A DNA stretch of 45,229 nt, taken from a virus. Position numbers and translations under genes: made by a program. The DNA lies in the IMG/VR virus record IMGVR_UViG_3300043775_003573, positions 1 to 45,229 of that record; one strand, written 5' to 3'. The notes beneath the pieces were generated by a model. It did no database searches, was not told where the DNA came from, and worked only from the letters and a program-made list of their open reading frames with translations. Below are positions 10,936-44,805 of this stretch, in pieces (the stretch's first letter is position 1; the number at the start of each line of letters is the position of its first letter).

Positions 10936-10936
10936 T

Positions 10937-11863: not shown

Positions 11864-11864
11864 T

Positions 11865-12197: not shown

Positions 12198-12198
12198 T

Positions 12199-12669: not shown

Positions 12670-12680
12670 ATTAAAATAAT

Positions 12681-13208: not shown

Positions 13209-13219
13209 ATTAAAATAAT

Positions 13220-13711: not shown

Positions 13712-13750
13712 ATTAAAATAATGTAAATTAAAATAATGTAAATTAAAATA
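13706..13750 (+). repeat. 3 x 15-nt repeat over a gene end
   Basis: ATGTAAATTAAAATA occurs three times in a row, beginning with the Met-stop codons of the gene ending at 13711. The same unit occurs twice at 14305-14334 and once after other members, so the spacer has been amplified together with the gene end. Each copy contains a start-stop ATG-TAA pair. Confidence 0.9.
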
Positions 13751-13752
13751 AT

Positions 13753-14310
13753 ATGAAAAGTTCAACAGTATTAGGAATTGGCTTATTAGCAGTACTCGGA
13801 GTAGGGACTTATATTTACTTAAAAAGTGGTAAAATACCATTTTTAGATAAATTTTCAGGAGAACTTTCTCCAACAAGCGGTAAAGTAAATAACACGGGAA
13901 GTACAACAGCCCCAACAAATGGTACAAAAAATCCAAGAAAAGGTTTTTTGACAAAAATTCTTGGACGAACACGTCCAAAAGCAAGCACACCATCCATAGC
14001 TGATACTTCTTTAGGGTTACAGCCTAAAGCTACAATAGATACTGTTATATCTATTGTTTCAGAAACACAAACTGAAAACTATAAAAAAGCTAAAGTGCTA
14101 TCTAAAGATATTGAAGTTTTGATGGTAGAATTGAAAAATGCAGAAAATGAATTAAAAAGTTTTGATTACAAACCTATGACTACTTTTGAAACAAAAGCTC
14201 GTAAAAGGGAAGACATTGCGATAATTAAAAAACGAATGTCAGAAAAAACATCTCAAGCAAATGCTTTAGGTTACAAAATATTACCTTATGGCGAAATCGA
14301 AAAAATGTAA
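13753..14310 (+). CDS. MKSST-family anchored protein
   Basis: 185 aa: anchor, the SGKIPFLDKF-type insert shared with 12199, a GFLTKILGRT phrase shared with the large genes, IADTSLGLQPKATIDTVISI, a variable helical middle (KAKVLSKDIEVLMVELKNAE) and [16 protein letters not shown]. It combines blocks found separately in other members, good evidence for mosaic assembly. Confidence 0.65.
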   Translation: MKSSTVLGIGLLAVLGVGTYIYLKSGKIPFLDKFSGELSPTSGKVNNTGSTTAPTNGTKNPRKGFLTKILGRTRPKASTPSIADTSLGLQPKATIDTVISIVSETQTENYKKAKVLSKDIEVLMVELKNAENELKSFDYKPMTTFETKARKREDIAIIKKRMSEKTSQANALGYKILPYGEIEKM

Positions 14311-14334
14311 ATTAAAATAATGTAAATTAAAATA
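14305..14334 (+). repeat. 2 x 15-nt repeat over a gene end
   Basis: Two copies of ATGTAAATTAAAATA start at the Met-stop codons of the gene ending at 14310. Same unit as at 13706-13750. Confidence 0.85.
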
Positions 14335-14336
14335 AT

Positions 14337-14756
14337 ATGAAAAGTTCAACAGTATTAGGAATTGGCTTATTAGCAGTACTCGGAGTAGGGGCTTATATTT
14401 ATTTAAAACGTAAAAAAGCAACCGAATCAAGTGTAACTGTACCTAGCACAAAAAACACATCAAATACAACAAGCGTTACACCTTCTGTGGCTGATGCTTC
14501 TTTAGGTTTGCCTACAAAAGTAACTGCTAGTGCAGAAGAGCAAAAAAACTATTTGGAAGCAAAAGACTTGGCTAGGATTTTATTACTAGATAATGCGAAG
14601 GTATTTGATAATGAGTTTAAATTATTAATTACAAAATATGGAATTAAATGGAATCCTATGTTGAGGCTTACGAGTATTTGGAGTAAAGCTCAAACTAAAA
14701 GAATAAACGCATTAGGCTACAAAGTGTTGCCTAACTACGATATTGAAAAAATGTAA
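14337..14756 (+). CDS. MKSST-family anchored protein, NYDIEKM type
   Basis: 139 aa: anchor, KRKKATESS linker, VADASLGLPTK, a different helical middle with NYLEAKDLARILLLDNAK and a tryptophan-containing segment, and the variant C-terminal box NALGYKVLPNYDIEKM. The same variant ending is found in the gene at 15517, so two C-terminal subtypes exist (LPYG-(E/L)-IEKM and LPNYDIEKM). Confidence 0.65.
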   Translation: MKSSTVLGIGLLAVLGVGAYIYLKRKKATESSVTVPSTKNTSNTTSVTPSVADASLGLPTKVTASAEEQKNYLEAKDLARILLLDNAKVFDNEFKLLITKYGIKWNPMLRLTSIWSKAQTKRINALGYKVLPNYDIEKM

Positions 14757-14763
14757 ATAAAAT

Positions 14764-15135
14764 ATGGCTCTTAATAAATATACACAACAAGAATTTTCAG
14801 ATTGTATATTACTCGATGCAAAATTGCGTAAGAGTATAATTATTGTTGCTGATTTGCAAAAAAAGAAACTTTCAGGAGGATTTAGTGCAATGGACAATCT
14901 TTTATTGAATCAAGAAATTGAGTTAAAAAATAAAAGGGAAATGGAATTTTCTAAATCATCTTGTGCAAATAAAATTGAGTACAAAAGATTATTAGAAACT
15001 GGTCAAATTACTACTGAAATGGCTAAAAAGCAAGAAGATGACATTTTGCCTAAAAATAACAATGAGCAGTACATTTACATTGGAATAGGAGTAGTTGTAT
15101 TAATAACAAGTTTATATTTAATATTAAAGAAATAA
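14764..15135 (+). CDS. Tail-anchored helical protein
   Basis: 123 aa, not a member of the anchor family. A charged helical N-terminal part (1-95) with two cysteines (C13, C62) precedes a C-terminal membrane segment (about 101-119, IYIGIGVVVLITSLYLIL) and KK. Its stop overlaps the next ATG (TAATG), indicating translational coupling. Function unknown. Confidence 0.6.
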   Translation: MALNKYTQQEFSDCILLDAKLRKSIIIVADLQKKKLSGGFSAMDNLLLNQEIELKNKREMEFSKSSCANKIEYKRLLETGQITTEMAKKQEDDILPKNNNEQYIYIGIGVVVLITSLYLILKK

Positions 15136-15512
15136 TGGCAGTATCATCAAAAGATTTAGCTAAAGAATTTCCATACACCGAAGATTGTGAGTTATTGGCA
15201 AAACAAATTGATTTGCTTGTAATAAACAAAGAATATTGGAGTAGGCAATCTAATAATTCAGAAGCAGACGCTACAAATAATTATTTATCAGCTAAAAGAA
15301 AGTGGTATAATGTCTACGGGTGTCTTTCTAAAGTAAACGCTATAAAAATGAAAGATGTTAGCGGTGTTTTTAATGCTTTTGGCGAAGAAGACAAATTAAG
15401 AATAGAAAAACAAATAGCTTCAGAAGTAAAAAAAAGGAACATTATCGGATTATCAGTGTTAATGGTATCTTTGCTTATGATAATTATTTTAAGTGAGATT
15501 AGAAAAAAATAA
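15135..15512 (+). CDS. Tail-anchored helical protein
   Basis: 125 aa, resembling the upstream gene in design: a helical polar domain with a cysteine pair (ECL-type DCELLAKQI early, GCLSKV in the middle), then a C-terminal membrane segment (about 102-119) and EIRKK. It overlaps the previous stop by one base. The two are probably distant paralogues and may pair in the virion membrane. Confidence 0.6.
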   Translation: MAVSSKDLAKEFPYTEDCELLAKQIDLLVINKEYWSRQSNNSEADATNNYLSAKRKWYNVYGCLSKVNAIKMKDVSGVFNAFGEEDKLRIEKQIASEVKKRNIIGLSVLMVSLLMIIILSEIRKK

Positions 15513-15516
15513 TAAT

Positions 15517-16131
15517 ATGAAAAATTCAACAATATTAGGAATTGGCTTATTATCAGTAGTTGGAGTAGGTGCTTATATTTATCTAAAAGGTAAAAAAACA
15601 ACAAATATAACAAGCGGTGCATCCTCTGTAGTAAATAGTTCTTTAGGATTGTCTACTGCATCAACAAATCCTACAACTGAAAATACAAAATTATTGCAGG
15701 ATTTGGGTGTAATAATAACACCCACAACTGTAACTTTAAATATTAAGCCAAACGAAGGTGTTCCTTTGCTTACAACCGAAAAGATACAAAACGCCTTGTC
15801 GGCTTTAGGTATAGACCCAACAAAGTCTATTTCTAAAGAATTGACTCTTCCTAACTATGTTGAAGCTAAAAAAATAGCTAGTGACATGAAGATAATTAAT
15901 GATGGAGCAGGTGCAATTGACCCATATAGAAATCCTACAAAATGGATTTACCCAAAAGAAATATTAAACAAATTTTCTAGTTTAGCAGGACAAACGGTAA
16001 CTTCAACCGCATCATATCGTAATCCCCCTGAGCTTAAACCTAGTCGTTCAGAGTTATTAGCAAATATGACCAAAAAAGTAAACGCATTAGGCTACAAAGT
16101 GTTGCCTAACTACGATATTGAAAAAATGTAA
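15517..16131 (+). CDS. MKNST-family anchored protein, NYDIEKM type
   Basis: 204 aa. I chose ATG 15517 (MKNSTILGIGLLSVVGVGAY), because it aligns with the family N-terminus; an in-frame ATG 8 codons upstream lies inside the preceding gene. A linker with VVNSSLGLSTA (degenerate motif), an inserted 50-residue domain (NIKPNEGVPLLTTEKIQNAL), a helical part with NYVEAKKIASDMK, and NALGYKVLPNYDIEKM follow. Confidence 0.65.
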   Translation: MKNSTILGIGLLSVVGVGAYIYLKGKKTTNITSGASSVVNSSLGLSTASTNPTTENTKLLQDLGVIITPTTVTLNIKPNEGVPLLTTEKIQNALSALGIDPTKSISKELTLPNYVEAKKIASDMKIINDGAGAIDPYRNPTKWIYPKEILNKFSSLAGQTVTSTASYRNPPELKPSRSELLANMTKKVNALGYKVLPNYDIEKM

Positions 16132-16134
16132 ATT

Positions 16135-16329
16135 ATGCCAGCAGGAAAAATATACGATACAGACGAAACAACTAGAATAAAAGATTTTCTAAATATTCAG
16201 ACTAAAGAATTGAAAGCTTTAGAATCAGAAAAATCGGTTACAGATAAAACTGTAATTCGTTATGCTATAGTCATCTCTGGTGCTGTAATTGTTTTGTTAG
16301 CAGTAAAGTTTTTAACAAGAAAAAAATAA
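16135..16329 (+). CDS. 64-aa tail-anchored protein
   Basis: A polar helical N-terminus (1-42) and a C-terminal membrane segment (about 43-60, YAIVISGAVIVLLAVKF) ending TRKK. It starts 3 nt after the previous stop and ends 1 nt before the next gene. The anchoring resembles the genes at 14764 and 15135. Confidence 0.6.
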   Translation: MPAGKIYDTDETTRIKDFLNIQTKELKALESEKSVTDKTVIRYAIVISGAVIVLLAVKFLTRKK

Positions 16330-16330
16330 A

Positions 16331-16930
16331 ATGGGAAAATCGACAACATTAGGAATTGGATTATTAGCAGTACTCGGAGCAGGTGCTTATATTTATCTAA
16401 AAAATAAAAAAGCAACCACGCCAAGTGGAATTATTGATAACACAACAAATAAAACTGGAATTGTAACGCCTCCAAAAAAAGGTTTATTACCAAGTTTTTT
16501 AGGAGGAACACCTCCAAAAGCAAGCACACCATCAATAGCTGATACGTCTTTAGGATTACAGCCTACAACTACAACTACTTCGGTAGTAGATACTGCAACT
16601 GGTGCGACTAAAACAACTAAAACAGATACAACAAGCGGAACTGCTGTAACTACTGTAACAAATGTAATAGACGAGACTAAAACTAATAATTACATCATGG
16701 CAAAAAAGATTTCAGAGCATATCGAATCTTTGTTGATTAAAATTAAAGATTTGAGCATTAAATTAAGTGGTCTATCTGGTTATATGGCTAATGTGGCGTA
16801 TCAAATTACAGAACAAAATAAACTTAAAAGCTTGATAAGGTCTGAAACTGCTTTAATAAAAACAAAAACAGCAGAAGCAAACGCTTTGGGTTACAAAATA
16901 TTGCCTTACGGTTTAATTGAAAAAATGTAA
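16331..16930 (+). CDS. MGKST-family anchored protein
   Basis: 199 aa: anchor MGKSTTLGIGLLAVLGAGAY, linker with GLLPSFLGGTPPK, IADTSLGLQP, a Thr-rich block (VVDTATGATKTTKTD) shared with 17478, a helical middle (NYIMAKKISEHIESLLIKIK) and [16 protein letters not shown]. The first roughly 240 nt are essentially identical to those of the next gene. Confidence 0.65.
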   Translation: MGKSTTLGIGLLAVLGAGAYIYLKNKKATTPSGIIDNTTNKTGIVTPPKKGLLPSFLGGTPPKASTPSIADTSLGLQPTTTTTSVVDTATGATKTTKTDTTSGTAVTTVTNVIDETKTNNYIMAKKISEHIESLLIKIKDLSIKLSGLSGYMANVAYQITEQNKLKSLIRSETALIKTKTAEANALGYKILPYGLIEKM

Positions 16931-16935
16931 ATAAA

Positions 16936-17472
16936 ATGGGAAAATCGACAACATTAGGAATTGGATTATTAGCAGTACTCGGAGCAGGTGCTTATATTTA
17001 TCTAAAAAATAAAAAAGCAACCACGCCAAGTGGAATTATTGATAACACAACAAATAAAACTGGAATTGTAACGCCTCCAAAAAAAGGTTTATTACCAAGT
17101 TTTTTAGGAGGAACACCTCCAAAAGCAAGCACACCATCAATAGCTGATACGTCTTTAGGATTACAGCCTACAACTACAACAGCTACAATAGACGAAACTA
17201 AAACAAATAATTATATTATTGCTAAAAATCTTTCATTAGAAATAATGGATTTGCAAAAAAAGATTAACAATTTATCTATTGATTTTCAAAAAATATTTCC
17301 TAAAAGTCGAATGGAAATGGACATGTATCAAAATATGGAAGTTGACAGAGAGAGAAAAACAAAAGTTGATTTGCCAAAGATGGTAATGACTAGAGATATG
17401 CAGAAAAAATCATCAGAAGCAAACGCTTTGGGTTACAAAATATTGCCTTACGGTTTAATTGAAAAAATGTAA
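16936..17472 (+). CDS. MGKST-family anchored protein
   Basis: 178 aa. N-terminal 80 residues identical to the gene at 16331, then the Thr block is missing and the helical middle differs (NYIIAKNLSLEIMDLQKKIN, with a methionine-rich stretch), ending in [16 protein letters not shown]. Constant ends with an exchanged middle. Confidence 0.65.
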   Translation: MGKSTTLGIGLLAVLGAGAYIYLKNKKATTPSGIIDNTTNKTGIVTPPKKGLLPSFLGGTPPKASTPSIADTSLGLQPTTTTATIDETKTNNYIIAKNLSLEIMDLQKKINNLSIDFQKIFPKSRMEMDMYQNMEVDRERKTKVDLPKMVMTRDMQKKSSEANALGYKILPYGLIEKM

Positions 17473-17477
17473 ATAAA

Positions 17478-18011
17478 ATGGAAAAATCAACAGCATTGGG
17501 AATTGGCTTATTAGCAGTAGTGGGAGTAGGCGCTTATGTTTATTTAAAAAGAAAAAAATCAACTACAACTACAACTACAACCACCTCATCTTCTGCGGTA
17601 GATAGCTCTTTAGGACTACCTGCCGTAACTACAACTACTTCGGTAGTAGATACTGCAACTGGTGCGACTAAAACAACTAAAACAGATACAACAAGCGGAA
17701 CTGCTGTAACTACTGTAACAAATGTAATAGACGAGACTAAAACTAATAATTACATCATGGCAAAAAAGATTTCAGAGGAAATAGCAAGTTTGCAAGATGA
17801 AATCAATAAATTAGAATTAGAATTTACTAAATGGTCTAAAGATTTTAGATTTCGTGGGGTAGGAAGTCGAACAGCTTATATAAATTCACAACGGGTTGAT
17901 ATGGTTACTAAACCTATTTATGGTATAAAAATAAAAATGCAAAACCTAACACCTCAAGCAAACGCTTTGGGTTACAAAATATTGCCTTACGGTTTAATTG
18001 AAAAAATGTAA
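17478..18011 (+). CDS. MEKST-family anchored protein
   Basis: 177 aa: anchor MEKSTALGIGLLAVVGVGAY, poly-Thr linker, VDSSLGLPA (degenerate motif), then the VVDTATGATKTTKTD block whose DNA is identical to that at 16331, a new helical middle with a Trp/Phe/Arg segment, and [16 protein letters not shown]. Last member of the array; a mosaic of its neighbours. Confidence 0.65.
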   Translation: MEKSTALGIGLLAVVGVGAYVYLKRKKSTTTTTTTTSSSAVDSSLGLPAVTTTTSVVDTATGATKTTKTDTTSGTAVTTVTNVIDETKTNNYIMAKKISEEIASLQDEINKLELEFTKWSKDFRFRGVGSRTAYINSQRVDMVTKPIYGIKIKMQNLTPQANALGYKILPYGLIEKM

Positions 18012-19363: not shown

Positions 19364-22300
19364 ATGGGAAATGTAACTAAATCACAAGCAAATAATATAA
19401 GAACGCCAGACGGTAACAGTCTAGCTGTTTTTGTTGACGGAGTAAGCGGAATAATAAAGGTAAAAGATATAATGGGTAACATTCAACCGTTATCTGATTA
19501 TATAAGTGGTGGTGGCGGAGGAGGATGTAGCCCTTTTCAATACGATGCTAACGCAACGGGTATAGAGCCAATACTAGGCACTAATAATGCTTCGGGTTGT
19601 TTTGCTACTATTGGAGGAGGTGGCACTAATAATGCTTCTGGATGTTTTTCTGCAATTGTTGGAGGTAGTAACAATACTGCTACTGCAAATTGCTCAACAG
19701 TTGGTGGGGGGTCTCTCAATACAGCTACTGGAACCTGCTCTACTGTTAGCGGAGGTCGATGTAATAGTGCTTTAAATGCTAGTGCAACAGCTGGAGGAGG
19801 TTTTAGAAATATCGCTTGTGGTCAAGGGTCAATAATTGGAGGTGGTGTTTGTAATACTGCTTTTGGATTTTGCTCAACAATAGGAGGTGGGGAATCTAAT
19901 ACTGCTAATGGATATTGCTCAACAATAGGTGGTGGTATTTGTAATGTTACTAACGGATATGGTTCAACTGTGGCTGGGGGTAGTTTTAATAAGGCTTTTA
20001 GTCAAGACGTAACAGTTGGAGGGGGGCAATCTAATATTGCTTGCGCTAGTAAATCAACAATTGCGGGAGGTTATACCAATACTATTTGCCTTGGAGCTGA
20101 TAATTCAGCAATAGGCGGAGGTTCAACTAATATTGTTTCTGCAACTGCTTCTTCTTCGACAATTGGTGGTGGTTGTGGTAATACTGCTTCTAATGTTTGG
20201 TCAACACTAGGTGGTGGTTATAGTAATACTGCTTCTAACATTAAATCAACAGTTGGTGGGGGTGGAAATAATACTGCTTCTGGTTATAGTTCAACAGTTG
20301 TTGGAGGTTGTCAAAATACAGCTTCTGGCTGTAATTCAGCTGTTGCAGGTGGACAATATAACCTTTCTTCTGGTATTAAATCAACAGTTGGTGGAGGTAG
20401 CAATAATACTGCTTCTGCAAATTGCTCAATAGTTGCAGGTGGTTGTACTAATACTGCTTCTGGATGTTGGTCAGGAATAGTTGGAGGTCGTAGAAACACT
20501 TCTTGTGGAAATTATTCGATTGTTTCAGGTGGTTATTGCAACACAGCTAACGGAGTACTCTCTTTTATAGGTAGTGGAAAATGTAACAGAATATTCCCTT
20601 CTGCAAATCTTGGCGGTAGTGCAAGATATGGAGATGTAATAGCAGGGGGTTGTAAAAATACCATTAATACTAATACTTATGCTACTACTTACTCGCCTGT
20701 TGGAGGAAGTACAATTTCTGGAGGGGTTTGTAATGTCATAACGCCTTACCAAGGAAGTGTGACAATTAGTGGCGGTACTAATAATATAGCGCAATGTGAT
20801 TTAACAACAGTTGGAGGTGGTGTGCAGAATACTGCTTCTGGATGTTATTCTGTAATTGGTGGCGGTTCTGGCAATACTACATCTCAAAAAGGTTCAGTCA
20901 TTTCTGGAGGTCAAGGTAATACTGCATCAAATTATTTTGCATCTTCACTTGGAGGTAAGTCAAATATTGTTAGTGGTACATACTCTTCAATTGTAGGAGG
21001 TAAGATAAATGTTAATTCAGGCTATCAGTCGTCAATTTTAGGAGGAACTTACAATGTTATGTGCGGTACTCAATCAGTAATAGGTGGTGGTTTTTGCAAC
21101 ATTAATTCAGGTACAACCTCAACAATTGGTGGTGGTAATACTAACAATGCTTCTAATACAGACACAACAATTGGCGGAGGTTCAAATAATACTGCTTCTG
21201 CTTGCCGTTCAACAATTGGCGGAGGTGCTTTTAATACTGCTTCTGCAACTGTTTCAACCGTAGGAGCTGGTTGTTGCAACATAACAAATTCAAGGTTTTC
21301 ATTTATTGGAGGAGGACAAAGAAATATAATTCAATCGCCAACAAACGAATGTTGTTCTCTTGGAGTTACAATAGGCGGTGGTATTGGTCATAATACAAAT
21401 GGCGGAACTTTTAACGCTACTACTGGGATTTTAAGTGGCGCAATTACTTGTTGTAATGCTGGTAAATTATCTACAATTGGAGGTGGTTTTAGAAATAAAG
21501 CTATTGGTTCTTGTTCAACAGTTGGAGGAGGCTTAAGCAATGTTGCTTCTACTGACTCAACCATTGGAGGTGGTTTTTGTAACAATGCTTCTAATAGTAG
21601 TTCAACAATTGGAGGAGGTGGTACTAACACTGCATCGGGAGTTTCTTCAACAGTTGGTGGTGGTGGTCAATGCTACAATAATGGGGGTTTTTATGGCACT
21701 GGAAATATTGCTTCTGGTACGTCATCAACAGTTAGTGGTGGTCAGGGAAATACTGCATCGGGAATTGCTTCAAAAGTTGGTGGGGGTTGTTATAATACTG
21801 CTTCTGGATGTTATTCTGTAATCGGGGGTGGTTGTTTAAATACTGCTTCTGTTTCTCTATCAACGGTTGGAGGAGGCTCAAGCAATATTGCTTGTAGTAC
21901 AGCAACAGTTGGGGGTGGTTTTAGTAATACTGCGTGTGGCGATGTTTCAACAATTAGTGGGGGTTGTTATAACAATGCTTCTGCTTCTTATTCAACAATT
22001 GGTGGAGGTCGGCAAAATACTGCTTGTGGAAATGCTTCGTCAATTGGAGGGGGTTGTTATAATACTGCTTCTGCTTGCCGTTCAACAATTGGTGGAGGTG
22101 CTTTTAATACTGCTTCTGCAACTGTTTCAACCGTAGGAGCTGGTTGTTGCAACATAACAAATTCAAGGTTTTCATTTATTGGAGGAGGACAAAGAAATAT
22201 AATTCAATCGCCAACAAACGAATGTTGTTCTCTTGGAGTTACAATAGGCGGTGGTGTTGGTCATAATACTACTGGAGGAACTTTTAATGCCTCTACGGGA

Positions 22301-23065
22301 GATTTAACTGGCGCAATTACTTGTTGTAATGCTGGTAAATTATCTACAATTGCAGGTGGTTTTAGAAATAAAGCTACTGGTTGTTTGTCAACAGTTGGAG
22401 GTGGTGCATCTAATACTTCCTCTAATTATCACTCAACCGTTGGAGGTGGTTTTAGTAACAATGCTTCTAATAATAGTTCAACAATTGGAGGAGGTGGTAT
22501 TAACACTGCATCGGGAGTTTCTTCAACAGTTGGTGGTGGTGGTCAATTCTACAGTAGTGGGGGTACTTATGGCGCTCCAAATATTGCTTCTGGTACGTCA
22601 TCAACAGTTAGTGGTGGTCAGGGAAATACTGCATCGGGAATTGCTTCAAAAGTTGGTGGTGGTTATAGTAATACTGCTTCTGGATGTTATTCTGTAATCG
22701 GGGGTGGTTGTACAAATACTGCTTCTGTTTCTCTATCAACGGTTGGAGGAGGCTCAAGCAATACTGCTTCTGGTTTAGCAACAATTGGGGGTGGTTTTGG
22801 AAATCTTGCGTCTGGCTGTATTTCAACAATTAGTGGGGGTTGTTATAATACTGCTTCTGGAATTAGTTCTAGTATCTTAGGAGGTGAATCAAATAGCACA
22901 AACACTTGTGCTTGTGCAATGATTGTAGGCTCTAATATTACAGCAAACAGAGCTTGTGCTACATTTGTAAATAATCTTTCTATTACAAACATCCCAACAT
23001 CATCAGCAGGTTTACCTACTGGTTCTGTATGGAGTAATTCAGGAATTTTGACAATAGTTCCGTAA
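19364..23065 (+). CDS. Giant GGG-NTASG repeat fibre (1233 aa)
   Basis: 1233 aa. A unique N-terminal domain (1-48) and a Gly6-Cys hinge precede SPFQYDANATGIEPILGTNN. From about 75 to 1185 the protein is built of roughly 14-residue units of the type S-T-(V/I)-GGG-x2-N-TASG-x2. They resemble the beta-roll head repeats of YadA-type trimeric adhesins. The cap (MIVGSNITA, CATFVNNLSI, IPTSSAGLP, GSVW) is shared with the two following fibres. Two copies of an insert with GAGCCNITNSRFSFIGGGQR lie within. Cysteines are frequent at fixed repeat positions. Probable receptor-binding spike/fibre; mechanism inferred. Confidence 0.7.
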   Translation: MGNVTKSQANNIRTPDGNSLAVFVDGVSGIIKVKDIMGNIQPLSDYISGGGGGGCSPFQYDANATGIEPILGTNNASGCFATIGGGGTNNASGCFSAIVGGSNNTATANCSTVGGGSLNTATGTCSTVSGGRCNSALNASATAGGGFRNIACGQGSIIGGGVCNTAFGFCSTIGGGESNTANGYCSTIGGGICNVTNGYGSTVAGGSFNKAFSQDVTVGGGQSNIACASKSTIAGGYTNTICLGADNSAIGGGSTNIVSATASSSTIGGGCGNTASNVWSTLGGGYSNTASNIKSTVGGGGNNTASGYSSTVVGGCQNTASGCNSAVAGGQYNLSSGIKSTVGGGSNNTASANCSIVAGGCTNTASGCWSGIVGGRRNTSCGNYSIVSGGYCNTANGVLSFIGSGKCNRIFPSANLGGSARYGDVIAGGCKNTINTNTYATTYSPVGGSTISGGVCNVITPYQGSVTISGGTNNIAQCDLTTVGGGVQNTASGCYSVIGGGSGNTTSQKGSVISGGQGNTASNYFASSLGGKSNIVSGTYSSIVGGKINVNSGYQSSILGGTYNVMCGTQSVIGGGFCNINSGTTSTIGGGNTNNASNTDTTIGGGSNNTASACRSTIGGGAFNTASATVSTVGAGCCNITNSRFSFIGGGQRNIIQSPTNECCSLGVTIGGGIGHNTNGGTFNATTGILSGAITCCNAGKLSTIGGGFRNKAIGSCSTVGGGLSNVASTDSTIGGGFCNNASNSSSTIGGGGTNTASGVSSTVGGGGQCYNNGGFYGTGNIASGTSSTVSGGQGNTASGIASKVGGGCYNTASGCYSVIGGGCLNTASVSLSTVGGGSSNIACSTATVGGGFSNTACGDVSTISGGCYNNASASYSTIGGGRQNTACGNASSIGGGCYNTASACRSTIGGGAFNTASATVSTVGAGCCNITNSRFSFIGGGQRNIIQSPTNECCSLGVTIGGGVGHNTTGGTFNASTGDLTGAITCCNAGKLSTIAGGFRNKATGCLSTVGGGASNTSSNYHSTVGGGFSNNASNNSSTIGGGGINTASGVSSTVGGGGQFYSSGGTYGAPNIASGTSSTVSGGQGNTASGIASKVGGGYSNTASGCYSVIGGGCTNTASVSLSTVGGGSSNTASGLATIGGGFGNLASGCISTISGGCYNTASGISSSILGGESNSTNTCACAMIVGSNITANRACATFVNNLSITNIPTSSAGLPTGSVWSNSGILTIVP

Positions 23066-23080
23066 ATAAAAACATAAAAA

Positions 23081-23341
23081 ATGAATAAACTAGAAATAGT
23101 AGTTGGAAGTTTGCAAATATCAAATGGAGGTGTAATAATACTTGTTATTCCAAAAGATGCGTGTGCTATTGATACGTTAGCTTTACAAAATACAATTCCT
23201 ATTGCTTCAATTTTTAATAAATATTTAGCGAACTTTACATCAGTATTTAATCAGCCTTTATCAAATTGTGTTGATTCAACTAATACTGTATTTACACAAA
23301 GTACTTTTATTGCTTTTGCCGAAGCTAATTTAGGGTTTTAA
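23081..23341 (+). CDS. Stand-alone fibre N-terminal domain
   Basis: 86 aa, closely related to the first 86 residues of the fibres at 23351 and 25652 (shared VFNQPLSNC, FIAFAEANLGF, NKYLA/G) but ending exactly where the glycine hinge begins in those. So it is the virion-attachment or assembly domain without a shaft. It may be a remnant of a lost fibre, or a short capping/competing subunit that sets how many full fibres are incorporated. Confidence 0.65.
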   Translation: MNKLEIVVGSLQISNGGVIILVIPKDACAIDTLALQNTIPIASIFNKYLANFTSVFNQPLSNCVDSTNTVFTQSTFIAFAEANLGF

Positions 23342-23350
23342 AAAAAAATA

Positions 23351-25642
23351 ATGATAAAATTACAAATAGTAGATGGTAGTTTACAAATATCAATAAATGG
23401 CTCTATAATATTAGTTGCCCCGAAAAACTCTTGTGCAATAGACGTTTTGACTCTATATGAATCAATACCTTATGTTTCTATTTACAATAAATATTTAGGA
23501 ACGTCAACAAGTGTTTTTAATCAGCCTTTATCCAACTGCGAAGATTCGTTAGGAACTCCTTTTGACGTAAATAGCTTTATTGCATTTGCAGAAGCAAACT
23601 TAGGTTTCGATACTTCAGGAGGTGGAGGTGGGGGCAGTCCTTTTCAATACGATGCTAACGCAACGGGTATAGAGCCAATACTAGGCACTAATAATGCTTC
23701 GGGGTCTTACGCTACTATTGGAGGGGGTCAATGTAATATTGCTTCGGGTGATGGTGCAAAAATAGGAGGTGGTTGTTGTAATACTGCTTCAGCAGAATAT
23801 TCAACAGTTGGAGGTGGTCGTTTTATCATTTCTTCTGGAGAATATTCAACAGTTGGAGGTGGTTGTTATAATACTGCTTTAGGAAATTGTTCAACAGTTG
23901 GGGGTGGTTTTTGTAATACTGCTTCTGCACAATCTTCAACAGTTGGTGGGGGTTATCGCAATACTGCTTCTTGTTATGAATCAACAATTGGTGGTGGTTG
24001 TTGTAACACTGCCTCTGCTTGTAATTCAACAGTTAGTGGAGGTTTTTGTAATACTGCTTCTGGTCTTAAAGCAGTGATTTCTGGAGGAGATTATAATACT
24101 GCTTCTGGAGATAGGTCAACAGTTGGAGGTGGGTGTGGAAATACTGCTTCGGGATATTCATCAGTAATTGGTGGTGGTGGAAGTAACAATACCGCTTCGG
24201 GTGTTCAGTCAGTAATTGGTGGGGGTGGAAATAATATTGCTTCTGATTGTTTCGCAACAGTTGGTGGGGGTCGTCAAAATACTGCTTCGGGCGGAGAATC
24301 AACAGTTGGAGGAGGTAATTCAAATACTGCTTCTGGAATTTTATCAACAATTGGTGGAGGCATACGAAACACTGCTTCTTATTATTATTCAACAGTTGGA
24401 GGTGGATTATGCAACAATGCTTCTTGTATCGTTTCAACAATTGGAGGTGGTAAATATAATATTTCTTCTGCACAGTATTCAACAGTTGGAGGAGGTAATT
24501 CAAATACTGCTTCTGGAGATAGGTCAACAGTTGGAGGTGGGTGTGGAAATACTGCTTCGGGATATTCATCAGTAATTGGTGGTGGTAGATGTAACACTGC
24601 TAGTGGTGGATGTTCAATAATTGGCGGAGGTTGTTTAAATACTACTTCGGGATGCCTTGCTACTATTGGAGGCGGTCAATCTAACACTGCTAGTGGTGGA
24701 TGTTCAACAATTGCAGGTGGTATTTCAAACACTGCTTGTGGTATATATTCTTTTATAGGTAGTGGTAAATCCAACCAAATATTTCCTTCTGCAAACTATT
24801 GCAGTTTTGCGCCACTGGTAAGTGATGTAATTAGCGGAGGATGTAATAACATAATTAACACTAATACTAATATTGGCACTTATTCCGCTACTGGCGGAAA
24901 TACAATTGGTGGCGGTATGAATAATACTGTAACTCCTTATAATGGATTTGTAACAATTTCAGGTGGTCAGTCAAATACTGCTTCTGGAGCTTCTTCAACA
25001 GTTGGAGGAGGGCAAGGTAATAATCTTTCTGGAAGTGCATCAGTAATTGGAGGCGGATATACTAATTGTGTTTCTGGAAGTTGTTCATTTCTTGGAGGAG
25101 GGCAAGGTAATAATCTTTCTGGAAGTTTTTCAGTAATTGGAGGGGGTTTCGTTAATGTTGCTTCTTATGGTTTTACAACAGTTGGAGGTGGTTATGCTAA
25201 CACTTCTTCTGGCGGTAAGTCAACAGTTGGTGGAGGCGGTACTAATATTGTTTCTGGCTATATTTCAACTATTGGAGGAGGGTGTGTTAATGTTGCTTCT
25301 GGAAATTGTGCTACAATTGGAGGTGGTAGATACAATACTGCTTCTGGTTATTGTTCAACCATTGGAGGTGGAGGTACTAATACTGCTTCGGGATGCAATT
25401 CAACAGTTGGAGGTGGTTATTTTAATACTGCTAGTGGAACTTCTTCTAGTATTTTAGGAGGTCAAGCAAATTCTACAAACGCTTGTGCTTGCGCAATGAT
25501 TGTAGGTTCTAATATTACAGCAGATAGAGTTTGTGCAACATTTGTAAATAACTTATCAATTAAAAATATACCAACATCATCTGCTGGATTGCCAAGTGGT
25601 TCCGTTTGGAGAAGTGGCACTTCGCTTTGCATAGTGATTTAA
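23351..25642 (+). CDS. GGG-NTASG repeat fibre (763 aa)
   Basis: 763 aa. Domain 1-86 as in the 86-aa protein, a hinge DTSGGGGGGSP, the FQYDANATGIEPILGTNN entry segment shared with the 1233-aa fibre, then about 40 units of the S-T-(V/I)-GGG-x2-N-TASG type, one interruption with YSFIGSGKSNQIFPSANY that also has a counterpart in the 1233-aa fibre, and the common C-terminal cap ending GSVWRSGTSLCIVI. No signal peptide; probably trimeric as in related beta-roll fibres (inference). Confidence 0.7.
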   Translation: MIKLQIVDGSLQISINGSIILVAPKNSCAIDVLTLYESIPYVSIYNKYLGTSTSVFNQPLSNCEDSLGTPFDVNSFIAFAEANLGFDTSGGGGGGSPFQYDANATGIEPILGTNNASGSYATIGGGQCNIASGDGAKIGGGCCNTASAEYSTVGGGRFIISSGEYSTVGGGCYNTALGNCSTVGGGFCNTASAQSSTVGGGYRNTASCYESTIGGGCCNTASACNSTVSGGFCNTASGLKAVISGGDYNTASGDRSTVGGGCGNTASGYSSVIGGGGSNNTASGVQSVIGGGGNNIASDCFATVGGGRQNTASGGESTVGGGNSNTASGILSTIGGGIRNTASYYYSTVGGGLCNNASCIVSTIGGGKYNISSAQYSTVGGGNSNTASGDRSTVGGGCGNTASGYSSVIGGGRCNTASGGCSIIGGGCLNTTSGCLATIGGGQSNTASGGCSTIAGGISNTACGIYSFIGSGKSNQIFPSANYCSFAPLVSDVISGGCNNIINTNTNIGTYSATGGNTIGGGMNNTVTPYNGFVTISGGQSNTASGASSTVGGGQGNNLSGSASVIGGGYTNCVSGSCSFLGGGQGNNLSGSFSVIGGGFVNVASYGFTTVGGGYANTSSGGKSTVGGGGTNIVSGYISTIGGGCVNVASGNCATIGGGRYNTASGYCSTIGGGGTNTASGCNSTVGGGYFNTASGTSSSILGGQANSTNACACAMIVGSNITADRVCATFVNNLSIKNIPTSSAGLPSGSVWRSGTSLCIVI

Positions 25643-25651
25643 AAAAAAATA

Positions 25652-28486
25652 ATGATAAAATTACAAATAGTAGATGGTAGTTTACAAATATCAATAAATG
25701 GCTCTATAATATTAGTTGCCCCGAAAAACTCTTGTGCAATAGACGTTTTGACTCTATATGAATCAATACCTTATGTTTCTATTTACAATAAATATTTAGG
25801 AACGTCAACAAGTGTTTTTAATCAGCCTTTATCCAACTGCGAAGATTCGTTAGGAACTCCTTTTGATGTAAATAGCTTTATTGCATTTGCAGAAGCAAAT
25901 TTAGGTTTCGATACTTCTGGAGGTGGAGGAAGTAGTCCTTTTGAATATAATGCTAACGCAACGGGTATAGAGCCAATACTAGGCACTAATAATGCTTCGG
26001 GAACTTACGCTACAATTGGGGGTGGTATAAATAATACTTCCTCTGGTTGTTGTTCAACAGTTGGAGGTGGTTTTTTAAATACTGCTTCTGGTTATTGTTC
26101 AACCATTGGAGGTGGAGCTATTAATAATGCTTCGGGATGCAATTCAACAGTTGCAGGCGGAACTTCAAACCAAGTCATTACTAATTATTCTGCAATTGGT
26201 GGTGGTAAATATAATACTATCACTTGTAGTAGCTTTTCTGTAATTGGAGGTGGTTGTGGAAATAGCGCTCGTGGTCAATATTCTTTTATAGGTGGAGGTA
26301 TTGGAAATGTTGCAAGTGCTGGTTATGGAAGTCTTGTAAGTGGTGGTTATTTTAATACTGCATCAAATGTTGCTTCGGTTGTAAGTGGTGGTTATTGCAA
26401 CATTGCATCTGGAAATACATCAACAGTAAGTGGAGGATATTGTAATCAAGCAACTGGTTATTTTAGTTCAATAGGTGGTGGACATACAAATACTTCAAGT
26501 GGATGCCATTCTTTTATAGGAGCTGGAGATTTTAATATTGCAAGTGCTGATAAATCTTTTATTGGTGGAGGTTATTTAAACACGGCTTCTGGTTGTATTT
26601 CAACAATTGGTGGTGGGCGTGAAAATACTGCTTCTGCAAGTTCGTCAACAGTTGGAGCTGGTTATTGCAACATAACAAATTCAAGGTTTTCATTTATTGG
26701 AGGAGGTCAAAGAAATATAATTCAATCGCCTACAAACGAATGTTGCTCTCTTGGAGTAACAATAGGAGGTGGTATTGGTCATAATACAACTGGCGGAACT
26801 TTTAACGCTACTACTGGATATTTAAGTGGTGCAATTACTTGTTGTAATGCTGGTAGATTATCTACAATAGGTGGTGGGTATAGAAATAAAGCTTCTTGCG
26901 CTTTTTCAACAGTTGGGGGGGGGTGTTTTAATACTGCTTCTGGTAGTGCTTCAAAAATTGGGGGCGGTTGTGCAAATACTGCTTGTGGCATAAGGGCTAC
27001 AATTGGTGGAGGATTTTGCAATACTGCTTGTGGACTTAGTTCAACAGTTGGAGGAGGACAATGTAATACTGCTACTGATTATGCGACAGTTGGAGGGGGT
27101 CATTTTAATCGTGCTTGTGCTTCTTTATCAACAGTTGGAGGTGGTTGTTTAAATACTGCTTCTGGCGGTAATTCAGTTGTTGCAGGTGGACAATGCAATA
27201 CTGCTTCTGGTCAATGTTCAACAGTTGGAGGTGGTTATAGAAGTCGTGCTTCTGGTGGTTGTTCAGCAGTTGTTGGGGGATATTATAATATAGCTTCTGG
27301 AAGTTGTTCATTTGCTGGAGGTGGTAGAAATAATACGGCTTCTGGTAGCCTTTCAACAGCAGGAGGAGGTTGTTGCAACATAACAAATTCAAGATTTTCA
27401 GTTATATCTGGAGGGCAAAGAAACATAATTCAATCGCCTACAAACGAATGTTGTTCTCTTGGAGTAACAATAGGAGGTGGTATTGGTCATAATACAACTG
27501 GCGGAACTTTTAACGCTACTACTGGGGATTTAACTGGCGCAATTACTTGTTGTAACGCTGGTAGATTATCAACTATTGGGGGTGGTTTTAGAAATAGAGT
27601 TGCTGGAAATTTTTCAACCGTTGGGGGTGGTTGTTGTAATACCGTTTCAGGATATAGTTCAACAGTTGGAGGAGGTATTGTAAATACTACTTCTGGATAT
27701 TTTTCAACAGTTGGAGGAGGACAAAGTAATAGTGCTTCTGGTGCTATATCAACAATTGGAGGTGGTTTTGCAAATATTGCTTCTAATTGCTATTCAACGA
27801 TTGGTGGAGGTCAAATTAATTTAGCTTCTGGTTCTTATTCAACAGTTGGAGGAGGTCGTCAGAACACTGCTTCTAATTGCTATTCAACAGTTGGAGGTGG
27901 TCAATTAAATACTGCTTGTGGCATAAGGTCAACAGTTGGAGGTGGTCGTTCCAATATTGCTTCTGAAAGTTCTTCAACAATTGCTGGAGGTATTAGTAAT
28001 ACTGCTTCTGGAGGTTCATCAACAGTTGGAGGTGGAGATGCAAATACTGCTTCTGCAACTTTTTCAACAATTGGAGGAGGTCGTTGTAATACTGCTTCTG
28101 GTGCTTATTCAACAGTTGGGGGTGGTCAAAGTAATATTGCTTCTGCAACAAGGTCAACAATTAGTGGCGGTTGTAGAAATTGTTCCTCTGCTTTATATTC
28201 AACAGTGGGAGGTGGTTTTACAAACTGTGCTTCTGGACTTAATTCAACAGTTGGAGGAGGTCTTTGTAATACCGCTTCTGGAGATAGTTCGGGTATTTTA
28301 GCTGGTATGTCAAATTCCACAAACACTTGTGCTTGTGCTATGATTGTAGGTTCTAATATTACGGCAGACAGAGCTTGTGCAACATTTGTAAATAACTTGT
28401 CAATAAAATCTATCCCAACATCATCAGCAGGTTTGCCTAGTGGTTCTGTGTGGAATAATAGTGGTGTATTAAATATTGTGACATAA
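25652..28486 (+). CDS. GGG-NTASG repeat fibre (944 aa)
   Basis: 944 aa. The first roughly 340 nt, including the A-rich leader, are nearly identical to those of the gene at 23351, differing at a handful of mostly synonymous positions. So the N-terminal domain was copied recently while the repeat shaft differs. The shaft holds two copies of the CCNITNSRFSFI-type insert otherwise seen in the 1233-aa fibre, and the same C-terminal cap. The set of three looks like interchangeable shafts on common ends. Followed by a promoter-like gap. Confidence 0.7.
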   Translation: MIKLQIVDGSLQISINGSIILVAPKNSCAIDVLTLYESIPYVSIYNKYLGTSTSVFNQPLSNCEDSLGTPFDVNSFIAFAEANLGFDTSGGGGSSPFEYNANATGIEPILGTNNASGTYATIGGGINNTSSGCCSTVGGGFLNTASGYCSTIGGGAINNASGCNSTVAGGTSNQVITNYSAIGGGKYNTITCSSFSVIGGGCGNSARGQYSFIGGGIGNVASAGYGSLVSGGYFNTASNVASVVSGGYCNIASGNTSTVSGGYCNQATGYFSSIGGGHTNTSSGCHSFIGAGDFNIASADKSFIGGGYLNTASGCISTIGGGRENTASASSSTVGAGYCNITNSRFSFIGGGQRNIIQSPTNECCSLGVTIGGGIGHNTTGGTFNATTGYLSGAITCCNAGRLSTIGGGYRNKASCAFSTVGGGCFNTASGSASKIGGGCANTACGIRATIGGGFCNTACGLSSTVGGGQCNTATDYATVGGGHFNRACASLSTVGGGCLNTASGGNSVVAGGQCNTASGQCSTVGGGYRSRASGGCSAVVGGYYNIASGSCSFAGGGRNNTASGSLSTAGGGCCNITNSRFSVISGGQRNIIQSPTNECCSLGVTIGGGIGHNTTGGTFNATTGDLTGAITCCNAGRLSTIGGGFRNRVAGNFSTVGGGCCNTVSGYSSTVGGGIVNTTSGYFSTVGGGQSNSASGAISTIGGGFANIASNCYSTIGGGQINLASGSYSTVGGGRQNTASNCYSTVGGGQLNTACGIRSTVGGGRSNIASESSSTIAGGISNTASGGSSTVGGGDANTASATFSTIGGGRCNTASGAYSTVGGGQSNIASATRSTISGGCRNCSSALYSTVGGGFTNCASGLNSTVGGGLCNTASGDSSGILAGMSNSTNTCACAMIVGSNITADRACATFVNNLSIKSIPTSSAGLPSGSVWNNSGVLNIVT

Positions 28487-28583: not shown

Positions 28584-28889
28584 ATGGAAAATTTCACAAT
28601 TCACATCTTCGGTTACGGAGAAACACAAATAAATTCAAAAGATTTATCTGTAAAAACAGCAACTGCTGACTTAACTAATGTAACTCCATTAGTAGATGCT
28701 ATATGGGCTAAAAAGCCAGCAGACAGCACAATAGAGAAAAAATTTCATGCAATCAACATATTTGGATATGATGATGTGAGATGGTTGCAAAAAGACGGAT
28801 TTGATGTAAAGGAAGATGCAGATTTAAAACCTTTAATCGATGCTTTGATTGCAGAACTTCAAATTGTAAAAGACAATCTTCCTGCATAA
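28584..28889 (+). CDS. Small phage protein with HIFGYGETQI motif
   Basis: 101 aa, acidic, no membrane segment. Begins MENFTIHIFGYGETQI and has a second related phrase later (HAINIFGYDDVRWL), so it may be an internal two-fold repeat. I associate this type of small protein with Bacteroidota phages near structural genes, but no function is known to me. First gene after the candidate promoter. Confidence 0.6.
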   Translation: MENFTIHIFGYGETQINSKDLSVKTATADLTNVTPLVDAIWAKKPADSTIEKKFHAINIFGYDDVRWLQKDGFDVKEDADLKPLIDALIAELQIVKDNLPA

Positions 28890-28948: not shown

Positions 28949-29767
28949 ATGGAAAAGCGTTTTTTCTTTAATTCATCATTGCCTAGAGCTGGCTCAACAC
29001 TTCTTCAGTCAATAATTGGAGACAATCCTGATTTTTATGTAACTCCTACTTCGGGGTTTTTAGAATTAATCTATGGAGCAAAGGGGAATTATAATGCTTC
29101 TCCAGAATTTAAAGCTCAAGACCCTAAACAAATGGACGATGCTTTTTTGTCTTTTTGTCGTTCGGGAATGGAGGGTTATTTCTCTAGCTTAACTAACAAG
29201 CCTTACATTTTAGATAAAAATAGAGGTTGGGGTATAAGTTATGGATTAGCGAATAAATTCTATCCAAACCCAAAAATAGTATGTATGGTTCGGGATTTAC
29301 GAGCTGTATTTGCTTCTATGGAAAAAAACTTCAGAAAAAATCCAACAAAGGAAAATCACGTTCAAAATCCTAGTCAATTGGTAGGTACTACTTTGAAAAA
29401 AAGAGTAGATATATGGGCTGATGGTATGCCAGTAGGCATATCTCTAGACCGACTGAGAGATATGATTGACCAAGGAATCCACAACAATATTTTATTCATT
29501 CGATACGAGGATTTAATGGAAAATCCAGAAAACGAAATAAGACGATTTTATGAGTTTGTAGGACTTCCTTACTACGAGCATCAATTTGTAAATATAACTC
29601 AACACACACACGAAAACGATGCTATTCATGGCATATACGGAGACCATAAGATTAGACCAAAATTTGAAAAGCTTCCAAATGATTACGAAGATATTTTAGG
29701 TTTTGAGATTTGTCAATCAATAAAAAATTCATATCCGTGGTTTTATAGATATTTTAATTATCTTTAG
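28949..29767 (+). CDS. PAPS-dependent sulfotransferase
   Basis: 272 aa, typical length for the family. It carries the 5'-phosphosulfate-binding loop LPRAGSTLL (11-19), the 3'-phosphate-binding strand/helix VCMVRDLRAVFAS (111-123, with R115 and a Ser) and the FIRYEDLMENPENEIRRFYEF helix expected in Sulfotransfer_1/3 proteins. It transfers sulfate from PAPS to an acceptor hydroxyl or amine. The adjacent APS kinase could supply PAPS and the adjacent GT9-like enzyme the sugar. Acceptor unknown: capsid glycan, fibre, lipid or host surface polymer. Confidence 0.85.
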   Translation: MEKRFFFNSSLPRAGSTLLQSIIGDNPDFYVTPTSGFLELIYGAKGNYNASPEFKAQDPKQMDDAFLSFCRSGMEGYFSSLTNKPYILDKNRGWGISYGLANKFYPNPKIVCMVRDLRAVFASMEKNFRKNPTKENHVQNPSQLVGTTLKKRVDIWADGMPVGISLDRLRDMIDQGIHNNILFIRYEDLMENPENEIRRFYEFVGLPYYEHQFVNITQHTHENDAIHGIYGDHKIRPKFEKLPNDYEDILGFEICQSIKNSYPWFYRYFNYL

Positions 29768-29800: not shown

Positions 29801-30265
29801 ATGATTTACAATATTTGTGGACAACCACATTCAGGCAAAACAACCCTAGCCAATTATCTTAAAAAAGTATTAGAAGTAAACAACCCTAAAAAAAAGGTGT
29901 TCATTGTAGATGGTGATGTGTTACGAAAAATACTCAACAACAAGGATTATTCTGAAAAGGGAAGAATGGATAATATTCAACAAGCATATTCTATTGCCAA
30001 ATACCTAAATGAAACCGATAATTTTGATGTTATTTTAGCTCTAGTATCGCCTTTCAAAGACCAAAGAGACCAATTTAGATTTGTTACCGATTGTATTGAG
30101 ATATTTGTACACACAACAAACATAAGGGGGAGAGAAAATTTTCACGTTGAAAACTATGAAAAGCCTAACTTTGACTACATAGATATTGACACAACCGATG
30201 TAGATGAACTAACATCCGTAAATGAATTAATGGAAAAAATAACACAACATAACAAAAAAAAATAA
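29801..30265 (+). CDS. cysC: Adenylylsulfate (APS) kinase
   Basis: 154 aa, somewhat shorter than the usual 175-200. Walker A is GQPHSGKTT (7-15). DGD at 37-39 lies where APS kinases have the conserved DGD-x-LR (here DGDVLRK), and SPFKDQRDQFR (83-93) is the family SP-(Y/F)-R/K-x2-RD motif. It makes PAPS from APS and ATP. Sits 33 nt after the sulfotransferase and 1 nt before the glycosyltransferase. The N-terminal and middle motifs support an active enzyme; the C-terminal part is abbreviated. Confidence 0.85.
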   Translation: MIYNICGQPHSGKTTLANYLKKVLEVNNPKKKVFIVDGDVLRKILNNKDYSEKGRMDNIQQAYSIAKYLNETDNFDVILALVSPFKDQRDQFRFVTDCIEIFVHTTNIRGRENFHVENYEKPNFDYIDIDTTDVDELTSVNELMEKITQHNKKK

Positions 30266-34361: not shown

Positions 34362-35231
34362 TTATGTAAAATTTGTAGTAACATTTGGCAAAGAATGTAT
34401 GCCATTGTGTGCAGTTACGCCAGTAAGTGTCGAAATACTAGTACCGTTGTTTTGCAGTAGCTTTTGATATATGCTACTCTTATCCTTTATAACAGTACCT
34501 TGAACAAATCTTACCGTGTCATTCTCGTCCATTATAAGATAACCTCCGCCCTCAATATTATCGTCCATTGATACTGCTTTCTTTAACCTATCGTCCTCTT
34601 TAGGCATTAGCTTAGCCAACTGCTTCAAAACTGTCTTTTTAGCCATCCATTGCTCTGAATCCTTCTTGTCGTTGAAGTATAAATCGTTTTTGTATTTTGA
34701 CATATTAGCAATCTGTTGAATCTCTAGTTTAGACATAACTTTAAAGACAACATCATCGTTTACTTTGGCACAAGCGTAGATATATTTCAGCGTAGAAGAG
34801 TTTCTAACAGCAGAATGATTAGGAGTATGGTATAGCTTTGGCTCAAGACCTAGTTCGTATTCGAAGTCGTCTTCTTCATAGACTATTTCACACCATATTT
34901 TCTTTACTTTGTCAGAACGCAATAATAACGTCAATAAGCCCTTATAACCTAAAACGGCAGTTATGCTATCGTTATAAGGAATAAAGTAAAATTCGCCTAT
35001 CATTTGGCTTGGATTAAGACCAATTTCAGCACAATGCAATATACTAGCAAATAGCGAAGCAGGATTTTTCAAAAACACATCTTGAAGCTTAGGAGAGCGT
35101 TTTAGTTCGCTAATTACAATTTGTTTAAATTTAGCAGGACTTAACGAACTACCTTCTAGTAATTCTACAAGGTTTTTTTGTTCGTACTTTTCGATTGTAG
35201 TTGTGAAGCTACTGATTAATTCTTTGCTCAT
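34362..35231 (-). CDS. recT: RecT-family single-strand annealing protein
   Basis: 289 aa. LSPAKFKQIVISELKRSPKL, then NPASLFASILHCAEIGLNP, FYFIPYNDSITAVLGYKGLL, SEQWMAKKTVLKQLAKLMP: the order and wording are those of the RecT/Bet-like family (PF03837). It anneals complementary single strands during recombination-dependent replication and works with an exonuclease, here probably the PD-(D/E)XK protein two genes upstream in the same operon. Last gene of the - strand transcript. Confidence 0.9.
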   Translation of the reverse strand: MSKELISSFTTTIEKYEQKNLVELLEGSSLSPAKFKQIVISELKRSPKLQDVFLKNPASLFASILHCAEIGLNPSQMIGEFYFIPYNDSITAVLGYKGLLTLLLRSDKVKKIWCEIVYEEDDFEYELGLEPKLYHTPNHSAVRNSSTLKYIYACAKVNDDVVFKVMSKLEIQQIANMSKYKNDLYFNDKKDSEQWMAKKTVLKQLAKLMPKEDDRLKKAVSMDDNIEGGGYLIMDENDTVRFVQGTVIKDKSSIYQKLLQNNGTSISTLTGVTAHNGIHSLPNVTTNFT

Positions 35232-35465: not shown

Positions 35466-36251
35466 TTAATAAACTATTTCGTCAATGTGGGGCATTTCTA
35501 CTCTGCTAGAGCAATTATCTCTTATGAAGCACTCATTGCATCGTATAAGAGAAGGTTTAGCCTTGAAAACCTTTTCTATTGGCTTTTGTAATTCGCCCTT
35601 TACCCACTCAACAGTTGACAAATGCGTAGCAATAGTGTTTTCCTCAACGTGAACCTTTATTATCTTTACATCATGCGTAGCTTTGGTAGAAAATATAAAG
35701 AAGAAAAAATCAATATCATCAGGCTCACATTCTAATTCTTTAGACAAAAGAATCTTGTATTGAACTGGCTGTAGCATTAGATTATGCTTTTCAGTCAATG
35801 AATCAAGGTTCCAACCTAATTCATTCCATTTGTCATCCATAAGCCCACTGTACTTGGTATCAATGATACAAATCCTATCGTTCCACTTGGCTACAATATC
35901 GAAAATACCAGTCATACCATCTTGCGTACACACTTTGCCTATTTCAATTATTTCAATTCCGTAATTTTTTACAATTTTCTTGAAGAACTCGGCACTGTCT
36001 ATTGCTCTTTGGTACTGCTCTGAAACCATTTCTTTTTTTGTTCCTGCATATACTATCTTGGCTTGTGGAATATGACCGTCACGAGGTATAGAGCCAGTAG
36101 CCATATACTCAAAAAAATTACCGTATTCCATTGCATCGCTTGAAGGAAATCTAACACCATCAATATACTTTGCTTTAGTCTGAAGACCGCAAACTTCACC
36201 GTTCTTATATTTTGCAAATTCTTTTAGAAAGCTTTGGGAAATGTTTATCAT
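35466..36251 (-). CDS. PD-(D/E)XK exonuclease, Cas4/RecB-like
   Basis: 261 aa. GIFDIVAKWNDRICIIDTKYSG gives the nuclease core: an Asp after a strand, then D-x-K of the (D/E)XK motif. The C-terminus has C-x2-C-x5-C (CNECFIRDNC) resembling the cysteine cluster of Cas4/AddB-type Fe-S nucleases, with an earlier lone Cys (VCGL, near residue 20) as a possible fourth ligand. It would resect DNA ends for RecT. Motif-level call; moderately sure. Confidence 0.75.
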   Translation of the reverse strand: MINISQSFLKEFAKYKNGEVCGLQTKAKYIDGVRFPSSDAMEYGNFFEYMATGSIPRDGHIPQAKIVYAGTKKEMVSEQYQRAIDSAEFFKKIVKNYGIEIIEIGKVCTQDGMTGIFDIVAKWNDRICIIDTKYSGLMDDKWNELGWNLDSLTEKHNLMLQPVQYKILLSKELECEPDDIDFFFFIFSTKATHDVKIIKVHVEENTIATHLSTVEWVKGELQKPIEKVFKAKPSLIRCNECFIRDNCSSRVEMPHIDEIVY

Positions 36252-44781: not shown

Positions 44782-44805
44782 AGTTTTTTGTTGTTAATTG
44801 GTTTG

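Follow-up and report, generated by a model that had tools for sequence, protein, structure and literature searches.

The window studied here, a 45,229-nucleotide stretch of DNA from an uncultured virus classed as phage, contains three consecutive fibre ORFs on the same strand (1233, 763, and 944 aa), at exactly the positions given in the initial annotation. They are best explained as modular receptor-binding fibres that are varied by ordinary homologous or near-homologous recombination, a reading to which we assign a probability of about 0.7. Each protein starts with an adaptor at its N-terminus, which is of type A for fibre 1 and of type B for the other two and is probably the part docking to the virion. 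A hinge rich in glycine and a short entry follow, then a long shaft of 15-residue beta-roll units broken by larger cassettes and, finally, a terminator or cap. Since the repeat scaffold is fixed and variation lies mainly at positions 1, 2, 9, and 10 of the unit, the shaft can lengthen, shorten, and re-order while the fold stays unbroken. Change would proceed by unequal crossing-over inside one gene, by duplication or conversion between adjoining fibre genes, and, when phages co-infect a cell, by their trading adaptors, cassettes, and blocks of shaft; recombination between near-identical repeats, using whatever recombination proteins are present, is sufficient as an explanation. Fibre mosaicism can be read here at the level of the 45-nt repeat unit and of the cassette across many uncultured phages, and near-identical genome pairs catch shaft change in the act. 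The features are listed in Table 1; the 86-aa ORF, cassette 3, the tandem duplication in fibre 1, and the pair of sulfotransferase and APS kinase genes were absent from the initial annotation.

Table 1. Genes and modules in and around the fibre region, by position in the window.
Feature	Position	Strand	Basis
Fibre 1, 1233 aa: type-A N-terminal adaptor, entry, beta-roll shaft, cap	19364..23065	+	ORF, repeat segmentation
Type-A adaptor of fibre 1, MGNVTKSQANNI...	19364..19510	+	
Entry segment FQYDANATGIEPILGTNN, fibre 1	19535..19588	+	
Cassette 2 in fibre 1, FIGSGKCNRIFPSAN...	20558..20803	+	
Tandem duplication in fibre 1, copy one	21203..21901	+	
Cassette 1 copy F1a (fibre 1)	21245..21478	+	
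Cassette 3 copy one (fibre 1)	21644..21763	+	
Tandem duplication in fibre 1, copy two	22076..22777	+	
Cassette 1 copy F1b (fibre 1)	22118..22351	+	
Cassette 3 copy two (fibre 1)	22520..22639	+	
Fibre 1 cap	22877..23062	+	
Stand-alone adaptor gene X, 86 aa, type B-like, without shaft, between fibres 1 and 2	23081..23341	+	
Fibre 2, 763 aa: type-B adaptor, entry, shaft, cap	23351..25642	+	ORF, repeat segmentation, structure model
Type-B adaptor, fibre 2	23351..23608	+	
Cassette 2, fibre 2	24746..24991	+	
Fibre 2 cap	25454..25639	+	
Fibre 3, 944 aa	25652..28486	+	ORF, repeat segmentation
Type-B adaptor, fibre 3; 99.2% identical to fibre 2 adaptor	25652..25909	+	
Cassette 1 copy F3a (fibre 3)	26636..26869	+	
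Cassette 1 copy F3b (fibre 3)	27344..27577	+	
Fibre 3 cap	28298..28483	+	
Conserved 101-aa gene directly downstream of fibres	28584..28889	+	
Sulfotransferase (PF13469)	28949..29767	+	
APS kinase (PF01583)	29801..30265	+	
RecT-like annealing protein	34362..35231	-	
PD-(D/E)XK exonuclease-like gene beside RecT	35466..36251	-	

The shaft unit is xxSTVGGGxxNTASG; written column by column it reads x1 x2 S T [I/V] G G G x9 x10 N T A S G. Among the 147 units in the window, columns 1, 2, 9, and 10 are variable and most others are strongly conserved, and the same four columns vary in 2206 units from 74 related proteins; these positions presumably touch the receptor, and fibre variation would change host range. 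By sequence, the shaft resembles the UspA1 head (3pr7, E 7e-25, approximately 240 residues), and UspA1_rep scores above the Pfam cut-off in fibre 3. Trimeric autotransporter heads of the UspA1/YadA type (3pr7, 3ntn) are, like the fibres here, built of short glycine-rich repeats forming a beta-roll, a predicted one in the present case; however, the present units have 15 residues, are encoded in a viral genome, and are combined with adaptor modules and large cassettes, and they were modelled as single chains. The AlphaFold model of fibre 2 (single chain) has regular short strands, with a pLDDT of about 90 in mid-shaft and a poorly modelled adaptor, cassette regions, and cap. Foldseek with the fibre models gave no significant PDB match, the VIA rows being generic beta-solenoids, and in a viral structure library the best matches, with 37-39% identity, come from uncultured Caudovirales and are uncharacterised proteins. 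Cysteines make up about 5% of fibre residues, without consistent stacking across neighbouring repeats (only column 2 beat shuffles among the five columns tried). All 13 aligned copies of cassette 1 keep four cysteines, arranged as two CC pairs, and a single histidine; the role of these residues as a metal site or in disulfides stays speculation because the cassette is modelled without confidence (pLDDT under 50).

Whole fibre and type-B adaptor had no tblastn match among annotated phages, where low-complexity filtering may mask the shaft; the cap had weak matches to Vibrio phages only; and no relative emerged when bacterial genomes were scanned for the cassette. PHROGs recognised no capsid or canonical tail genes besides collagen-like matches among the proteins tested from the window and a 101-kb relative, so it is the architecture, together with resemblance to the uncultured Caudovirales proteins, that supports the designation of virion fibre. 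These proteins could instead be adhesins or ice-binding proteins on infected cells, as might be suggested by their likeness to a grass ice-binding protein and the head of UspA1 and by the lack of recognised tail genes, but the ice-binding match lies under the Pfam cut-off, the proteins begin with adaptor domains and not with an evident secretion signal, these adaptors swap among bodies, and many of the phages have several tandem fibre copies. A cell-surface role is therefore very unlikely.

Within the window, the three fibres do share the C-terminal cap that the initial annotation described: the last 62 residues align gap-free, with 75-80% nucleotide identity, dS of 0.65-0.80, and dN/dS of approximately 0.2. 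With dS values this high the caps have not been recently homogenised and give no evidence of recent exchange; they are old sequences maintained by selection. The other end has a different history in fibres 2 and 3, for which near-identity over the first 340 nt or so had been reported. From the start codon, 215 nt are exact and 258 nt contain 2 differences, both synonymous (dS 0.04); identity is about 97% over the first 360 columns and thereafter 53-80% per 30-column block, and upstream of the ATG it is at background (9/30, 12/30). The low dS points to a recent duplication or conversion of the first 258 nt. The generalization that ends are constant while shafts vary is thus true as a description, but it mixes one very recent event, in the fibre 2 and 3 adaptors, with old conservation of the caps.

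The entry noted as common to fibres 1 and 2 lies in a 65-nt exact match that spans FQYDANATGIEPILGTNN, and fibre 3 has a near-identical version, FEYNANATGIEPILGTNN. Cassette 1, of about 72 residues (CCNITNSRFSFI...AGKLSTI), does occur twice in fibre 1, in both cases exactly, and twice in fibre 3, as YCNITNSRFSFI and CCNITNSRFSVI; pairwise dS among the four copies is 0.11-0.48, the fibre 1 pair having 0.11. Cassette 2 (FIGSGKxNxIFPSAN) is likewise found where it had been placed, once in fibre 1 and once in fibre 2, with 62% amino acid identity. Fibre 1 also contains a tandem duplication of 821 nt at 91% identity with a period of 873-877 nt. Chance is excluded by the lengths of the exact matches, which are 162, 84, 81, and 71 nt inside the fibre genes and 215 nt between them.

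Scans of viral contigs with neighbouring genes yielded more than 100 loci related to this one, including some duplicates. Wherever the locus is covered, the closest relatives retain the order [18023][18622][19046] - type-A fibre(s) - 86-aa adaptor - type-B fibre(s) - [28584] - sulfotransferase - APS kinase, some having type-C adaptors. The conserved gene at 28584 may possibly encode an assembly factor. Adaptors of types A, B, and C are each common to genes with differing bodies, and the type-A adaptor of L089 and L090 is fused to unrelated bodies that are not beta-rolls. The 86-aa adaptor forms a separate orthologous lineage, syntenic in four relatives; its X-type orthologue in L083/L041 bears a shaft, while the window copy does not. 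Cassette 1 turns up in 21 of the loci in the first set, and one gene often has several copies. In L026/L027 the cap motif is also internal to a protein, and the cap may therefore be better seen as a terminator of a beta-roll section. Intermediate relatives of the window phage (90-99% identical) were not found, and a search with the 18622 gene added no relatives.

Divergence between the window and its relative L085 differs sharply among genes. Seven core genes have pS of 0.60-0.79, with dS from 1.2 to saturated. The 86-aa adaptor gene has pS 0.29 and dS 0.37, the cassettes have dS of 0.32-0.58 (pS 0.26 for the closest), and dS is 0.67-0.79 for the adaptor domains and 0.73 for the 28584 gene; the 19046 gene, just upstream of the fibres, is intermediate at 0.85. 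Fibre codon usage lowers the pS ceiling (expected saturation 0.62-0.66, compared with 0.81-0.86 with core usage), but the adaptor gene and the closest cassette are still far beneath it (0.26-0.29 versus 0.62-0.64). Because cassettes and the small adaptor are much less diverged between phages than core genes, they probably move horizontally, as judged from substitution levels. For 26 of the 51 shaft windows compared, the best match is in another phage and not in the window's own genes.

Pairs of closely related genomes record the changes themselves. L026 and L027 have flanks that are 99.1-99.4% identical and identical fibre ends, yet the shaft is partly replaced, with block gains and diverged replacements in its later part. 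Mosaic shafts also distinguish L038 from L042 and L047 from L051, where flanks are about 93% identical; in L007/L008 the shafts are stable. The L020 and L021 genes are identical except for 720 nt, exactly 16 units, between 303-nt exact direct repeats, and losses of this type could be assembly collapse, which is conceivable since a 303-nt repeat may exceed read length. Extending that caution to all the rearrangements, as metagenome assembly artefacts of repetitive genes, would fit the exact-repeat losses in L020/L021 and in the 605-nt difference at 16331-16935, which fall between exact repeats of 250-303 nt. It does not fit the duplicate copies of fibre 1, which are 9% divergent and recur unchanged in separate contigs, or the replaced blocks of L026/L027, which contain diverged sequence beyond mere missing copies, and it is highly improbable as a general account.

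The proposal that the fibres diversify by modules thus holds for the exchange of shafts and cassettes, as in L026/L027, but in the window phage itself three near-identical contigs, which may stem from related samples, have unchanged shafts, so the demonstration of recent exchange between genomes comes entirely from relatives. These invariant contigs, the cap dS and dN/dS, and a cap tree in which grouping by genome is not strict could all be expected of old paralogues held similar by selection alone, with exchange no longer continuing. Such a history seems improbable, as it would not give a dS of 0.04 between the fibre 2 and 3 adaptors, cassette dS far under that of core genes, or shafts replaced between relatives that are 99% identical.

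Continuing recombination is preferred. Between orthologues, pN/pS is 0.47 at variable positions and 0.18 at conserved columns (Fisher p 3.5e-5); between duplicated copies it is 2.2 at variable positions, a borderline excess (binomial p 0.055). Diversifying selection at these positions was considered and dropped, the orthologue value being relaxed but not above 1 and the paralogue value having p 0.055. Because replacement changes between orthologues are relaxed and not in excess, the variation seems to come mostly from moving blocks. The concentration of variability at four positions per repeat does resemble targeted variation, as from a programmed retroelement or invertible-segment system, but between orthologues the variable positions have no excess of replacement changes, and the machinery was not found: RVT_1 reverse transcriptase was absent from 16 records (incomplete ones, with control genomes positive), Phage_integrase (PF00589) and Resolvase (PF00239) were absent from 11 records, and the inverted repeats present are short and imperfect, none substantial. 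Programmed switching is accordingly extremely unlikely.

The initial annotation considered an in-genome RecT a plausible engine of receptor diversification. RecT-type proteins promote recombination between diverged sequences, and the RecT-like and exonuclease genes of the window lie 6-8 kb from the fibres and are syntenic in close relatives, as would suit a dedicated engine for shuffling fibre genes. The distribution of RecT among phages does not bear this out. Pfam RecT was not found in 12 records tested apart from the window phage and L085, and the negative records include the swap-bearing L026, L027, L038, L042, L047, and L051, although the records are incomplete, so that a divergent annealing protein might escape detection; two of the records tested also have weak RecA-like matches. 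Conversely, RecT is present in G020, G023, and G024, all without a beta-roll fibre. A dedicated role for the phage's own RecT and exonuclease is hence improbable, and general recombination between repeats is favoured over it.

The sulfotransferase is a nearly constant companion of the fibres. Of 57 loci where this enzyme gene is flanked by 5 kb or more in both directions, 55 contain a beta-roll ORF, at a median distance of 1.2 kb and against a background of 1/19, counts that include near-duplicate genomes. Of 16 records that contain the two flanking genes, 12 have sulfotransferase together with beta-roll fibres and the other 4 have neither (Fisher p of about 5e-4, kinship ignored). Starting from cassette 1, the enzyme is also found in most loci with enough flank; it is lacking at L186-L188, L189, and L162-L165, although the second fibre locus in two L162-L165 contigs does carry it. 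In the phage enzyme, PRAGST and VRDLRAVFASM align with the PAPS-binding motifs of TPST1, while the EETR stretch of TPST1, which holds catalytic residues, aligns to PTSG, and this conserved region is not matched. The cofactor motifs PRxGxT and VRDxRA are what the phage enzyme has in common with the protein-tyrosine sulfotransferase TPST1 (PDB 9wp1, 5wri). The APS kinase would make the sulfate donor PAPS, and the sulfotransferase may act on the fibre, on a host glycan, or on another substrate. A phage that sulfates its own fibres, with PAPS from the APS kinase donating sulfate to exposed shaft residues, is a tentative and rather unlikely scenario; if it were true, shaft sulfation would be a chemical layer of receptor diversification on top of module shuffling. 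The near-perfect company of the enzyme is in any case a testable clue that fibres or receptors are chemically modified.

Mosaic fibres are already known. The spikes of Ackermannviridae (PMC8432352) and the fibres of Alteromonas phages (PMC10579305) have, as here, a constant virion-side module, a variable receptor side, and exchange between phages; here, however, exchange reaches inside the repetitive shaft, to blocks of 15-residue units and cassettes of 40-80 residues. In the tail-fibre gene of EfV12-phi1, 1.8-kb tandem duplications arose during laboratory coevolution with a resistant host (PMC6365445). The window resembles this case in copy-number change within a fibre gene, but its units are natural and based on 45 nt, and it adds cassette exchange. 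The BACON tandem repeats of crAss-like phages are tail-associated arrays that evolve by duplication and horizontal transfer (PMC6949934), processes common to the fibres here; the domain and phage group differ, and the BACON units are larger. A search spanning part of the literature found no prior description of the beta-roll repeat system with a sulfotransferase partner, which looks new as a variant.

Other parts of these genomes also contain repeated or unusual genes. Window positions 9754-18011 hold a run of small paralogues, probably membrane-anchored; two of them, at 9754 and 10937, resemble collagen-like tail-fibre families by their matches and have an 823-nt stretch in common at 93.6% identity. 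Tandem paralogues with a transmembrane-like N-terminus lie at 16331-17472, and the 101-kb relative is without one copy: it is shorter by 605 nt, and the junction has an exact homology of about 250 nt. This is either a deletion or an assembly difference. On the minus strand at 44805-45161, ARAGORN predicts a tmRNA with an unusual 26-residue tag, which may be false. The 101-kb relative (G001, L094-L099) encodes, at 48784-49602 and neighbours, a 272-aa ATPase with weak likeness to terminase or HerA, as well as proteins of 1918 and 2575 aa. A conserved protein at 5367-6152 of the window has a metalloprotease-like HEFSH motif in six of six aligned relatives.
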